This document shows, one piece after another, positions 43,773 through 49,007 of a stretch of 64,000 bases of DNA. Each line of letters opens with the position of its first letter. The stretch's first letter is position 1. The position numbers and the translations under genes are program-made. The notes under the pieces are model-generated. The model was not told the origin of the DNA. It saw only the letters and a list, made by a program, of their open reading frames with translations, and made no database searches. This stretch comes from Streptomyces sp. NBC_00654 (GTDB lineage Bacteria; Actinomycetota; Actinomycetes; Streptomycetales; Streptomycetaceae): contig NZ_JAPEOB010000001.1 of the NCBI RefSeq assembly GCF_026341775.1, forward strand, positions 2,790,001-2,854,000, in the 5' to 3' direction.

Positions 43773-44516
43773 TCAGACCCGCGTGCCGCGGGTGCGGCGC
43801 ATCAGGACCGCCCCGCCGAGCAGCAGCGCGGCGCTCGCCCCGGCGGCCATGCCGAGGCCGGCGGCACCGGTCTCGGCGAGGTGCGAACCGGGCTGGACCG
43901 GCCGGGGGGTGTCGACCGGCGGCTCGTCGACCGGCGGTTCCTCGACCGGCGGCTCATTCACCGGGGGCTCCTTGACCGGCGGTTCATTGACGGGGGGCTC
44001 CTCCGTGGGGGGCTCCTCGACCGGGGGTTCCTCCGTGGGCGGCTCCTCGGTCGGCGGCTCGGTCGGCGGCTCGTGGTGGTCCGGGCCGCTCACGTTCGCG
44101 CACTGATTGCCGAAGGCCGGGTTCAGCAGACCGACGACGTTGACGCTGTTGCCGCAGGCGTTGACCGGGACGTCCACGGGTGCCTGGACCAGGTTCCCCG
44201 ACAGGACGCCGGGGGAGCCGGCCGTCACGCCCTGGGCGCTGGATCCGCTCTGCTGTCCGGGGTGGCCGCCGGAGTCCACGTTCTTGCACGCGTTGCCGAA
44301 GGCGGGGTTCAGCAGGGCGATCACGTTGACCGTGTTGCCGCAGGCGTTGACCGGGATGTGCACCGGCACCTGGACGGCGTTGCCCGAGCCGACCCCCGGT
44401 GAACCGACGGCGGCACCGGCGGCCGAGGCATCGGCGTACGCGGAGCCGCCGGCCGCGGTCAGGATGCCCGACGCCGCCGCCATGACGATCATGCTTTTGT
44501 TCAGAACCTGTCGCAT
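43773..44516 (-). CDS. Long chaplin with sortase anchor (ChpA/B/C type)
   Basis: 247 residues from ATG 44516 with aaggaaggg upstream. Signal peptide to about residue 28 (AYA). Two chaplin domains follow at about 29-79 and 93-141, each with its Cys pair (59/77 and 121/139) and the GNxVNVxxLLNPAFGN core. A PPTEE/PPVNE pentapeptide spacer spans 149-203. The end is a wall-anchoring signal: LAETG at 213-217, a hydrophobic helix and the basic tail RRTRGTRV. LAxTG is the sequence cut by class E sortases. Such chaplins are fixed to the cell wall of aerial hyphae and organise the short amyloid-forming chaplins. Confidence 0.95.
   Translation of the reverse strand: MRQVLNKSMIVMAAASGILTAAGGSAYADASAAGAAVGSPGVGSGNAVQVPVHIPVNACGNTVNVIALLNPAFGNACKNVDSGGHPGQQSGSSAQGVTAGSPGVLSGNLVQAPVDVPVNACGNSVNVVGLLNPAFGNQCANVSGPDHHEPPTEPPTEEPPTEEPPVEEPPTEEPPVNEPPVKEPPVNEPPVEEPPVDEPPVDTPRPVQPGSHLAETGAAGLGMAAGASAALLLGGAVLMRRTRGTRV
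43906..44076. repeat. 15-bp repeats coding PPxxE in the chaplin spacer
   Basis: About eleven imperfect 15-bp units encode PPTEE, PPVEE, PPVNE, PPVKE and PPVDE. The acidic, proline-rich linker should be extended and span the wall between the anchor and the chaplin domains. Confidence 0.88.
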
Positions 44517-45056
44517 TACTTGCCCTTCCTTAGGACATTTCGCGTGGGCGATTCGCCCGCAGAGCCACCGAGCGGTGTCGCGTTCGAGCCGAGACGCACG
44601 TGCGCGCTGGACGACACCCCTAACGACCCTGGGTTGTGAGGGAAACTTGGAAGTCAGTGGAAATCTTGTAACCAGCCGAACGAGTGACGTACGAACGTTC
44701 GCATTTGATCTGGAGGGGCTGGTTGAAAGTTGGCGGAAGCGAAGGCGTCCCTTCGGTCCTCCGATATTTCCCAGCCTTTGTCCGGGCGGCAACTTTCACG
44801 CGTTCGGCGGCGGTTCCTCCGTGGAGAATGGTCGCAATTCCTTCACGAATCACCTAATCGACTTCCCGAATTAGCCTCCGGGGGGTGCGTCGCACACACG
44901 GACAGGGAGTCACCCTGACGGGGTGGACGCAGGGCGGGCCCTCCGTCAACGAGTTCCGGCTTTCAGGCATTCGGGTGATTGGAGAGAACCAAATGCCGGG
45001 CCGCGAGTTGGTCAGGAGGCTCCGGTACGGGGCAACGGGTTCGAGAAGGGTTAATC
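44517..45056. other. 540-base divergent region between chaplin and rodlin
   Basis: No gene can be supported here. It is less GC-rich than its surroundings. CGAACGTTCG at 44692-44701 is a perfect 10-bp palindrome and may be an operator. Near the rodlin, AGTTGGTCAGGAGGCTCCGG (from 45006) is shared with the upstream region of the second rodlin. I could not confidently place the sigma-factor boxes of the developmental promoters expected here. Confidence 0.5.
45006..45027 (+). promoter_or_regulatory. Conserved rodlin leader element, copy 1
   Basis: AGTTGGTCAGGAGGCTCCGG plus TA matches 46667-46688 at 20 of 22 positions. Both copies sit 30-50 bases before a rodlin start, so this is a shared promoter or 5' untranslated element. 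Confidence 0.55.
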
Positions 45057-45458
45057 GTGATCAAGAAGGTTCTGGCTACGGGCGCTGTCGCCGCCTCCAT
45101 CCTCGGTCTCGGCGCGACGCAGGCCATGGCGATCGGCAACGACGGAGGCACGACCTCGGTCAACGGTAACGGCGCCGCGCAGGTGTTCGGCAACGCTGCC
45201 ACCCACGGTGACTGGAGCCCCCAGTTCGGCCTGATCCAGGGCTCGCTCAACAAGCCCTGCATCGGTCTGCCGCTGAAGGCCAACGCCGGTTCGCTGATCG
45301 GCGCCGTGCCGATCTCGCTCCAGGACATCAACGTCCTGTCGTCGCCGCAGAACCAGCAGTGCACCGAGAACTCCACCCAGGCCAAGGGTGACGAGGCCCT
45401 GTCGCACATCCTGGACAGCATCCCGATCCTCTCCGGCAACGGCGCCCACAACGGCTGA
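45057..45458 (+). CDS. Rodlin, copy 1
   Basis: 133 residues from GTG 45057 with gaaggg 6 bases upstream; upstream in-frame sequence does not code for signal peptide. The secretion signal MIKKVLATGAVAASILGLGA ends near AMA (residue 25). The mature protein begins [31 protein letters not shown] split over the rodlin hallmark and has two Cys (NKPC, NQQC). Rodlins assemble with chaplins into the rodlet layer that makes aerial hyphae and spores water-repellent. Very similar to the two copies downstream. Ends in a hairpin terminator at 45474. Confidence 0.95.
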   Translation: MIKKVLATGAVAASILGLGATQAMAIGNDGGTTSVNGNGAAQVFGNAATHGDWSPQFGLIQGSLNKPCIGLPLKANAGSLIGAVPISLQDINVLSSPQNQQCTENSTQAKGDEALSHILDSIPILSGNGAHNG

Positions 45459-45516: not shown

Positions 45517-45668
45517 GCTGCTGCCTCCATGGGTGGCCGTACATCGGCTGGTCATATGAACCGGCCAGTGATGTGGATCGACTGATACTGCGTCATTCGG
45601 GCGGAATCCGAGAATCTTCTCCTTGAGCGGTTTCAATCTCGGTCGTTAATCGTTACGAATGACAGCGT

Positions 45669-45716: not shown

Positions 45717-45749
45717 CCGCTCCAGACCCCGCCGCAGAAAGGGATGAAA

Positions 45750-45983
45750 GTGAAGTACACCAAGGTTGCCTCAGTCGCCGTCGGAGCCCTCATGGCGCTG
45801 GGATTCGCCGCGCCGGCCATGGCCGACGCGGGTGCCGAGGGCATCGCCGTTGGTTCCCCGGGCGTGCTGTCCGGCAACGTCGTGCAGATCCCGGTCCACG
45901 TTCCGATCAACATCTGCGGTAACAGCGTGAACATCATCGGTCTGCTGAACCCGACCTTCGGCAACACCTGTATCAACAGCTGA
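45750..45983 (+). CDS. Short chaplin
   Basis: 77 residues from GTG 45750. The ATG six bases upstream lies in the spacer after the aaaggg ribosome site, and the GTG context is identical to the next gene's, so GTG is preferred. Signal peptide to residue 25 (APAMA), then one chaplin domain (GIAVGSPGVLSGNVVQIPVHVP, NSVNIIGLLNPTFGNTC) with Cys56 and Cys74. It has no anchor. Short chaplins of this type assemble into surface amyloid fibrils that lower water tension and allow hyphae to grow into the air. A strong terminator follows. Confidence 0.94.
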   Translation: MKYTKVASVAVGALMALGFAAPAMADAGAEGIAVGSPGVLSGNVVQIPVHVPINICGNSVNIIGLLNPTFGNTCINS

Positions 45984-46056: not shown

Positions 46057-46245
46057 TTTCCCCGCGCGGACATCGTGCGGACTTTCGGTCGGTCCCCGTG
46101 CGGGCGGGAAAAACCTGCGGCCGCGTAGTTTCCCGTGCGCGGCCTGATCGTTGTTCAAGGAAAGCGGCAGAAGTCACAGGCAAAGAGAGCTTGTGTGCGG
46201 CACGGGAACGTGACCGAAAGATGCCGCGCAGAAGGGAACCTGAAA

Positions 46246-46533
46246 GTGAAGTACGCGAAGACCGCTGCGCTCGTTGCCGGTTCCGTGGTCGCTCTCGGAA
46301 CGGCTGCTCCCGCCTTCGCCGTTACTGACACGGCCCCCAACTTCAGCCTCGACAGTGGCCTGAACCAGCTGATGGCCAGCACCCCGGAGATGGTGGACCC
46401 GCTGGTCGACACGGTCGGCGCGGCCACCGAGACGGTGCAGAAGGACGGCACCGTCGGGAAGCTGGCGGGCGAGGCCACCGGCGTGGCCCAGGCGGCAGCC
46501 CCGATGCTCGGCGGAATGCCCATCGGCGGCTGA
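46246..46533 (+). CDS. 95-residue secreted protein of unknown function in the chaplin-rodlin cluster
   Basis: Starts GTG 46246 after gaaggg. The signal peptide MKYAKTAALVAGSVVALGTA, cleaved after AFA (residue 25), is nearly the same as that of the short chaplin, and the 30 bases around the start are also shared. The mature 70 residues contain no Cys, no chaplin core and no rodlin motif. They look like amphipathic helices (LDSGLNQLMASTPEMVDPLVDTVG...) ending in a flexible APMLGGMPIGG tail. The location between a chaplin and a rodlin, and the borrowed start region, suggest a co-regulated surface component. I do not recognise a family. Confidence 0.85.
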   Translation: MKYAKTAALVAGSVVALGTAAPAFAVTDTAPNFSLDSGLNQLMASTPEMVDPLVDTVGAATETVQKDGTVGKLAGEATGVAQAAAPMLGGMPIGG

Positions 46534-46723: not shown

Positions 46724-47134
46724 ATGATCAAGAAGATTCTGGCCTCGGCGGCGGTCGCTGCCTCGGTCGTCGGTGTCTCCGCTGCGGCTGCCCCCTCCGC
46801 CATGGCCATCGGCAATGACGGCGGCACCACGTCGATCAACGGCAACGGCGCCATGCAGTCCTACGGCAACTCCGCCACCCACGGTGACTGGAGCCCGCAG
46901 TTCGCGCTCATCCAGGGCTCGCTCAACAAGCCCTGCATCGCCCTCCCGGCCAAGGCCAACCTCGGTTCGCTCATCGGCCTGGTGCCGATCACGGTCCAGG
47001 ACCTCAACGTCCTGTCGTCGCCGCAGAACCAGCAGTGCACCGAGAACTCCACCCAGGCCAAGGGCGACGAGGCCCTGTCGCACATCCTGGACAACATCCC
47101 GATCCTCTCGGGCAATGGTGTCGGCAACAACTGA
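46724..47134 (+). CDS. Rodlin, copy 2
   Basis: 136 residues from ATG 46724 with agaaggg 7 bases before it. Signal peptide to about residue 28 (SAMA). Mature sequence [22 protein letters not shown], then HGDWSPQFALIQGSLNKPC, and a C-terminus [21 protein letters not shown]. The mature part differs from copy 1 mostly by conservative changes, so they arose by tandem duplication. Exported structural protein of the rodlet layer. No clear terminator lies directly behind it. Confidence 0.95.
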   Translation: MIKKILASAAVAASVVGVSAAAAPSAMAIGNDGGTTSINGNGAMQSYGNSATHGDWSPQFALIQGSLNKPCIALPAKANLGSLIGLVPITVQDLNVLSSPQNQQCTENSTQAKGDEALSHILDNIPILSGNGVGNN

Positions 47135-47761: not shown

Positions 47762-48169
47762 ATGAAGAAGATGATGGCCGGCGCGGCAGTGGCTGTGTCC
47801 CTGATCGGTCTGTCCGCAGCCGCGGCCCCCACGGCCATGGCGATCGGCAACGACGGTGGCACCACCACGCTCAACGGCAACGGTGCCACGCAGGCCTTTG
47901 GCAACGCCGCCACGCACGGTGACTGGAGCCCGCAGAACCAGCTCGTCCAGGGCACCCTGAACAAGCTCTGCATCGGTCTCCCGGCCAAGGCCAATGTCGG
48001 TTCGCTCATCGGCCTGGTGCCGATCACGGTTCAGGACATCAACGTCCTGTCCAACCCGCAGAACCAGCAGTGCGCCGACAACTCCACCCAGGCCAAGGGC
48101 GACGAGCCGCTGTCGCACGTCCTGGACGACATCCCGGTCCTCTCGGGCAACGGCGTCGGCAACAACTGA
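47762..48169 (+). CDS. Rodlin, copy 3
   Basis: 135 residues from ATG 47762 with aaaggtga upstream; a TTG three bases earlier is part of the spacer. Signal peptide ([20 protein letters not shown]) ends near AMA. The mature part keeps [40 protein letters not shown] and [20 protein letters not shown] and is the most diverged of the three. A third rodlin is more than the two known in S. coelicolor. A perfect hairpin pair follows (48183 and 48243). Confidence 0.95.
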
Positions 48170-48308: not shown

Positions 48309-48809
48309 TCAGCCCAGGGCGCGTACAGGGAGGAGGCAGTGGGCGGCCGTGCTCACGACCTCCGGGTTCGCCGCGAAGCCCCGCAACTGCTCCTCGCTGA
48401 CGGGCTGTCCGGGCACGGCCTCGGGCCAGGGGCGGGTCGCGAACATCACGTACACCTGACCCTGCGCCTCGGCGGCGGCCAGCCACTCCGCGGGGACGGT
48501 GTACTGGGCCTTGAAGTGAGGAAGCGTCAGGACGGCCTGACCGGCCTGGACGAGGAGCTTCGCCTGGATGCCCGGCGTCTCGGAGGCGTCCTGAACGCCT
48601 CCGCCGACCTGGAGGCCCGCGCGCTCCAGGGCCACACGCAGGGCGGCCTCCCCGGCCTCCGGGCCGTCCTGCCCGTCGCCCAGCGAATAGGTGAGAAGGA
48701 AGGCGACGTCATGGCCCTGGTCGGGGTGTTCGCCGCTCCAGCCGATCAGGATCTGGGTGCCCAACTGGGCTTGTGTGAACGTGCCGGTGGCGGTCTGGGG
48801 TGAGGTCAT
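48309..48809 (-). CDS. DUF5949 family protein
   Basis: 166 residues from ATG 48809 (MTSPQTATGTFTQAQLGTQI); an in-frame ATG at 48857 adds residues that do not look coding. The pattern LIGWSGEHPDQGHDVAFLLTYSLGDG, LPHFKAQYTVPAEWLAAAEAQG and the end VVSTAAHCLLPVRALG fits DUF5949, a soluble streptomycete family of unknown role as I remember it. It has no signal peptide. Monocistronic, convergent with rodlin 3. Confidence 0.75.
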   Translation of the reverse strand: MTSPQTATGTFTQAQLGTQILIGWSGEHPDQGHDVAFLLTYSLGDGQDGPEAGEAALRVALERAGLQVGGGVQDASETPGIQAKLLVQAGQAVLTLPHFKAQYTVPAEWLAAAEAQGQVYVMFATRPWPEAVPGQPVSEEQLRGFAANPEVVSTAAHCLLPVRALG

Positions 48810-49007
48810 GCTCGGCACCCTAACGGCCCGAGACCGGTCGATGTACATGCGTATCACCTGATCGAGGGAGATTGAGTGATATCTCCGGCCGGCACCCCGG
48901 CGCGAACCCGATTCCGGGCCCGTTCCGGTTGCCGTCCCCTCGCGGTCCGGCCGCGGTCGGGCGCCGAACCGGCCAGCGTCCTCTCCCGCCGGGCCCGGGA
49001 AAAGCTG

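Follow-up and report, generated by a model that had tools for sequence, protein, structure and literature searches.

The gene at positions 46246-46533 of the window (the whole stretch of DNA that was analysed, 64 kb in length) encodes, as judged by profile comparison, a member of a Streptomyces-wide, uncurated family of small, cysteine-free, putatively secreted proteins with four diverged subfamilies (A to D). By the same comparisons the family is wider than first supposed, extending through the genus, and is linked to the chaplins both by position and by a promoter-like box. We regard it as an even call that the protein is a secreted developmental protein, co-regulated with chaplins, that serves the aerial sheath in an accessory or assembly role. 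The features discussed are listed in Table 1.

The open reading frame on the + strand starts with GTG and yields 95 residues with an N-terminal secretory signal ending in ...APAFA, from which secretion of the protein is predicted. The mature part of 70 residues (about 6.8 kDa) is devoid of Cys, His, Arg, Trp and Tyr, with a pI of about 4.05. Searches with the full protein gave zero matches in Pfam at E ≤ 1, the chaplin model PF03777 included, and two sub-threshold matches and nothing more in NCBIfam, the rodlin model NF041022 not being matched. As neither model matched, membership in the chaplins or rodlins was rejected; the first-pass annotation, which had described a GTG-start secreted protein of 95 residues inside a chaplin/rodlin cluster with a mature part belonging to neither group, thus holds on the evidence of the reading frame, the signal peptide, the PF03777 and NF041022 neighbours and the unmatched models. 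The chaplin-type box and the chaplin neighbourhood of the gene were taken as a sign of working with chaplins, not of membership. A LAxTG-type sortase signal with membrane anchor is absent from the C-terminus, the sequence ending in PMLGGMPIGG, and a PDB search returned one match (E 0.8), covering the signal peptide region. Two AlphaFold models were of low confidence (pLDDT 52.5 and 57.9) and contained helices and zero strands; in both, one helix coincides with the early motif or directly follows it, and another precedes the C-terminal motif.

Table 1. Positions of the 95-residue protein gene, its neighbours and the associated sequence elements within the window.
Feature	Position	Strand	Remarks
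Long chaplin, two chaplin domains, LAETG near end	43773..44516	-	PF03777; start codon judged by eye
Box GTTTC-N16-CGTT of long chaplin	44622..44646	-	pattern search
Rodlin 1	45057..45458	+	NF041022, E 2.1e-63
Box GTTTC-N16-CGTT of short chaplin	45630..45654	+	120 nt 5' of GTG start
Short chaplin, signal peptide resembling 95-residue protein family	45750..45983	+	PF03777, E 7.4e-29; GTG start
Box GTTTC-N16-CGTT of 95-residue protein gene	46128..46152	+	118 nt 5' of start
95-residue secreted protein gene	46246..46533	+	GTG start; one match in own genome
Signal peptide MKYAKTAALVAGSVVALGTAAPAFA, 25 residues	46246..46320	+	cleavage site judged by eye
Early mature-part motif SLDSGLN (family: SLNGG-like), conserved	46345..46365	+	subfamily alignments
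C-terminal motif PMLGGMPIGG (family: LLGGLPL-like), conserved	46501..46530	+	subfamily alignments
Rodlin 2	46724..47134	+	NF041022, E 9.1e-69
Rodlin 3	47762..48169	+	NF041022, E 4.4e-67
DUF5949 gene adjoining cluster	48309..48812	-	PF19374, E 5.5e-73

The cluster runs in the order long chaplin (-), rodlin, short chaplin, 95-residue protein gene, rodlin, rodlin and DUF5949 gene (-), with the stop of the short chaplin (45983) 262 nt upstream of the 95-residue protein gene; the DUF5949 gene may be a further part of it. In the long chaplin, a proline-rich EPPxxEPP repeat lies between the chaplin domains and LAETG, with an Extensin_1 match below cut-off. The upstream regions of the three rodlins are without the chaplin-type box and have GTTGATCAG-like stretches in common, which are perhaps another promoter or a regulator site.

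A phmmer search with the 95-residue protein found 123 relatives among 180 candidates; among the 120 matches listed, every relative with a name comes from Streptomyces and is annotated as a hypothetical, secreted or ATP-binding protein. Forty relatives from this list went into a profile (A1, subfamily A) that matched in 208/295 Streptomyces genomes in two score tiers, the lower of which comprised subfamilies C (profile A2) and B and D (profile A3). A narrower family consisting of the close tier alone was considered and rejected, because the distant matches have a related mature part. In all four subfamilies the mature part has a SLNGG-like motif near its beginning and a LLGGLPL-like end, with a fast-changing middle between them in the family alignment, and the 95-residue protein has the signal peptide, the early motif and the end. 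Among members originally found with full-length profiles, a profile of the mature part of subfamily A alone matched 9/9 members of B, 10/10 of C and 11/11 of D at E<0.01, with 0/2000 shuffled sequences. At the same threshold, the corresponding profile of B matched 3/10 members of C and 9/11 of D, that of C 5/9 of B and 6/11 of D, and that of D 9/10 of C and 8/9 of B, with 1/2000 shuffles.

Database searches returned 1254 proteins for A2 and 741 for A3 (each at E ≤ 0.001, among 8000 scored candidates). At E ≤ 1e-5, where some matches cover the signal peptide alone, a broad profile (A4) built from 110 sequences matched in 237/295 Streptomyces genomes (233/288 of those of good quality) and gave no match in the other 58/295; across the class it matched in 21/246 genomes and in 1/103 genera sampled, namely Streptomyces, and A3, searched at order level under the same threshold, in 139/197 genomes and 1/6 genera. 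The profile search that the first-pass annotation had proposed, carried out with full-length profiles, finds the family in Streptomyces only, and the idea that the gene carries a mature domain new to it gives way to one of a genus-wide family. The gene is single-copy in its own genome and relatives usually occur once per genome. No Pfam or NCBIfam model describes the family: among the 110 members, PF03777 was not found at E ≤ 0.001, NF041022 was not matched, and the stray matches were one in each collection, AIDA and BRANT_His_rich. The database name 'ATP-binding' was discarded, with zero supporting Pfam or NCBIfam domains in these members. Cysteine occurs in 0/136 mature parts examined; the median mature pI is about 4.1-4.9 in subfamilies A, B and C and 10.2 in D, and the mature GRAVY ranges from about 0.2 to -0.3 depending on the subfamily.

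For the neighbourhood of the relatives, 141 loci were compared: the window and 140 fetched loci, 100 of them from A1 matches (60 better-scoring, 40 lower) and 40 from order-level A3 matches (20 of which 19 were weak, with E 2.5e-10 or worse, and 20 better), with two genomes contributing more than one locus. A mature-part profile matched in 136 of the 141 (31 A, 21 B, 65 C, 19 D). A chaplin was found in the fetched flank of about 6 kb at 131/136 loci (A 31, B 20, C 61, D 19) and within 2 kb at 128/136. Four of the five chaplin-free loci retain a tyrosinase gene at a distance of 0.7-1.2 kb; at the fifth, which is close to the end of its contig, a rodlin is found 158 nt from the family gene. By our estimate, which is based on 9 PF03777 matches in about 5 clusters of the 9.6-Mb genome, at most about 1% of random 12-kb stretches would contain a chaplin. 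The mature-part profiles had been built from earlier-fetched loci; among 80 fetched later, 75 matched, with a chaplin near 70 of the 75. The linkage counts are not independent, since the loci are related by descent. The five loci that failed to match the mature-part profile, none of which (0/5) had a chaplin in the flank, were rejected as members; their products are small secreted proteins too, whose signal peptide is similar and whose mature part does not match.

A rodlin was present in the flank of about 6 kb at 72/136 loci (A 30, B 20, C 6, D 16), subfamily C being mostly without nearby rodlins (6/65 have one). Tyrosinase genes occur at 57/65 subfamily C loci, and DUF5949 relatives beside 30/31 loci of subfamily A and 44/65 of subfamily C, which may point to a single ancestral cluster. 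The gene order is almost fixed (25 + 9 + 1 truncated) in 35 loci of subfamily A, a set in which L001-L004 are counted and genomes may repeat. The neighbourhood survey had likewise been proposed beforehand, with homologues commonly away from the cluster and lacking secretion signals as the outcome that would speak against a surface protein; what it returned are relatives with signal peptides, 131/136 of them near a chaplin and 72/136 near a rodlin.

The positional link is accompanied by a promoter-like box. The pattern GTTTC-N14-ATCGTT occurs at 2 sites in the 9.6-Mb genome, before the 95-residue protein gene and before the short chaplin, and its reversed control at 0. GTTTC-N15-TCGTT occurs 5 times (control 1), three of the sites belonging to the long chaplin, the short chaplin and the 95-residue protein gene, and before these three genes alone GTTNC-N16-CGTT is found in the window. 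This form, loosened from GTTTC to GTTNC after variants had been noticed, is present with a spacing of N16 or N17 up to 200 nt upstream at 133/136 family loci (125 at N16, 8 at N17), and the other spacings from 8 to 25 account for 13 occurrences all together. With strict GTTTC, counted in an overlapping locus set that also includes loci outside the 141, the box was found before 78 family genes at N16 and 5 at N17 among 96, before 76 chaplins at N16 and 10 at N17 among 196, and before 0/172 rodlins; over the whole of this locus set there were 161 occurrences at N16 against 0-17 at other spacings. At the three family loci without the box, a chaplin lies 97-129 nt away with its end visible just upstream, so that co-transcription is possible and the family gene and the chaplin may form an operon. 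Among 61 relatives, the strict pattern was found in 26 genomes, including at sites away from the family gene, and some of these sites agree almost exactly in their spacer, as repeat copies would.

In its spacing of N16 and in CGTT, the box of the 95-residue protein gene agrees with the published BldN motif CGTAACN16CGTTGA (PMC2375139), its -35 element reading AGTTTC. Three other chaplins of the genome have CGTAGC, CGTTAC or CGTAAC-N16-CGTT, one further chaplin has a weak CGTGTC variant, and one long chaplin has no box. We read the box as sigma-BldN-like. The literature describes both chaplins and rodlins as sigma-BldN targets, yet the rodlins are without the box (0/172), which leaves the assignment to this sigma factor uncertain.

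The first-pass annotation had also noted that the signal peptide and the start region resemble those of the short chaplin, and had read this as a duplicated chaplin 5' module fused to a new mature domain. The resemblance stands at the level of a 14-mer, TGAAAGTGAAGTAC, which spans both GTG starts and occurs on the + strand of the window at positions 45745 and 46241 only. The signal peptide, compared with the whole genome in a search whose first look let through 3 candidates only, matched itself and the short chaplin (E 0.034, 52% over 25 aa). In the DNA the resemblance is weaker: the 75 nt encoding the signal peptide are identical at 47/75 positions between the two genes, against 44/75 at the next best place in the window, so that the common 5' coding region is modest evidence by itself, and the DNA does not support the idea that the chaplin 5' end was duplicated recently. 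The promoter box, which the first-pass annotation does not mention, is the stronger link between the two genes.

The direction of the proposed transfer is probably the reverse. Among 267 chaplin N-termini from the loci, 52 start with MKY, MKH or MKL (a sorting rule of our own), and 44 of the 52 have a GTG start. On a signal-peptide profile built from subfamily C only, these 52 reach a median of 37.7 bits and the other 215 a median of 0.0 bits (best 36.8), with subfamilies A, B and D at 34.7, 36.0 and 30.9 bits; on a profile of the signal peptides of the other 215 chaplins, the 52 reach a median of 18.6 bits. From these scores, the short chaplin most likely carries a secretion module of the kind typical of the 95-residue protein family; it is probably the odd one among the chaplins, the signal peptide of the 95-residue protein being typical of its own family. 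This suggests an exchange of the secretion module between genes of the cluster. The signal peptide and GTG start of the short chaplin are unlike those of most other chaplins.

A working model can be built on these observations. A family gene would be transcribed from the chaplin-type promoter GTTNC-N16-CGTT, read most likely by sigma-BldN, and since the promoter type is that of the cluster chaplins, the product would be made and exported when they are, at the time hyphae grow out of the substrate. Once at the cell surface, the mature chain would bind chaplins and, in strains that have them, rodlins; it is probably flexible, with two or three short helices, and its tail is hydrophobic and LLGGLPL-like. 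It would thereby serve the hydrophobic sheath as an accessory component or modulate its assembly. The variation in mature charge between subfamilies (pI 4.1-4.9 vs 10.2) argues against one simple charge-based contact.

The same promoter type and neighbourhood, together with the small size, predicted secretion and hydrophobic C-terminal motif, would also suit the third structural class that the first-pass annotation had suggested, here taken as a bulk, self-assembling sheath component laid down with the chaplins. We consider this unlikely: the family lacks both a chaplin domain and cysteine, its mature GRAVY is only about 0.2 to -0.3, both low-confidence models are made of helices without strands, and unlike the chaplins it is usually present in one copy per genome. 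A secreted protein that is timed with aerial growth and shares the chaplin regulon but has no connection with the sheath, for instance a signal, a protease inhibitor or an antimicrobial peptide, might account for the fast-changing middle, the subfamily-specific charge and the tyrosinase genes at subfamily C loci; it is harder to reconcile with a chaplin link that holds over four subfamilies, and neither the 110 members nor the few neighbours examined showed a domain of toxin, inhibitor or immunity-like type, which makes this explanation quite improbable.

That the signal peptide and promoter form the functional unit, with the mature part a near-neutral passenger from 5' module shuffling, is what one might gather from 40 subfamily A members, in which 13 of 17 invariant columns fall within the 25-residue signal peptide. 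We give this little credence, as the early and C-terminal motifs persist over four subfamilies, the mature-only profiles cross-match, and internal stops are rare (1 among the A4 Streptomyces matches listed, 1 among the order-level A3 matches listed). We tentatively entertain, as rather doubtful, a coat formed with the help of three co-evolved secreted classes (chaplins, rodlins and this genus-wide family with the chaplin promoter), the last being needed for sheath assembly or patterning. Short length, fast sequence change and names such as hypothetical or 'ATP-binding' would explain how the family came to be overlooked.

Neither a description of the family nor experiments on its members were found in searches of open-licence PMC texts. 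The gene order of subfamily C (chaplin, family gene, DUF5949-like gene, tyrosinase, chaplin) fits the interval between chpF (SCO2705) and chpG (SCO2699) of S. coelicolor with its melanin genes (sco2700-sco2701), and by this gene order the family member would be SCO2704. One paper alone among the open-licence PMC texts was found to name SCO2704: it reports the gene as overexpressed in an argR mutant, with chaplins and rodlins up as well according to its results section, but one sentence of its discussion states that rodlin and chaplin genes did not differ significantly (PMC5839063). The S. venezuelae strain deleted for chpDFG-rdlAB had the coding sequences 'and intervening genes' replaced (PMC12096830); mutants of this type could have lost the family gene unnoticed. 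In the literature consulted, the exported coat of the aerial hyphae is said to consist of chaplins, rodlins and SapB; if the model is true, a family that is also secreted and has the chaplin promoter type and neighbourhood in most Streptomyces would be a missing coat component or helper.

Among known systems, the chaplins (PF03777) are likewise small and secreted, occupy the same loci and in many cases have the GTTTC-N16-CGTT box, one short chaplin also having a near-identical start region and a similar signal peptide; the family differs from them in lacking the chaplin domain and cysteine (136/136 mature parts) and in its helix-leaning, low-confidence models. The rodlins RdlA/RdlB (NF041022) are also small and secreted, belong to the same cluster and lie no more than about 6 kb away at 72/136 loci, but NF041022 is unmatched by the family, the box is found before 0/172 rodlins, and subfamily C is mostly rodlin-free. 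The SapB/AmfS lanthipeptides resemble the family in being small and exported and in their morphogenetic link with aerial growth, which for the family is putative; lanthionine bridges, however, require cysteine, of which the mature part of the family has 0. The Streptomyces database entries called hypothetical, secreted or 'ATP-binding protein' are members of the family under those names, and annotators gain a family to model in place of the last.
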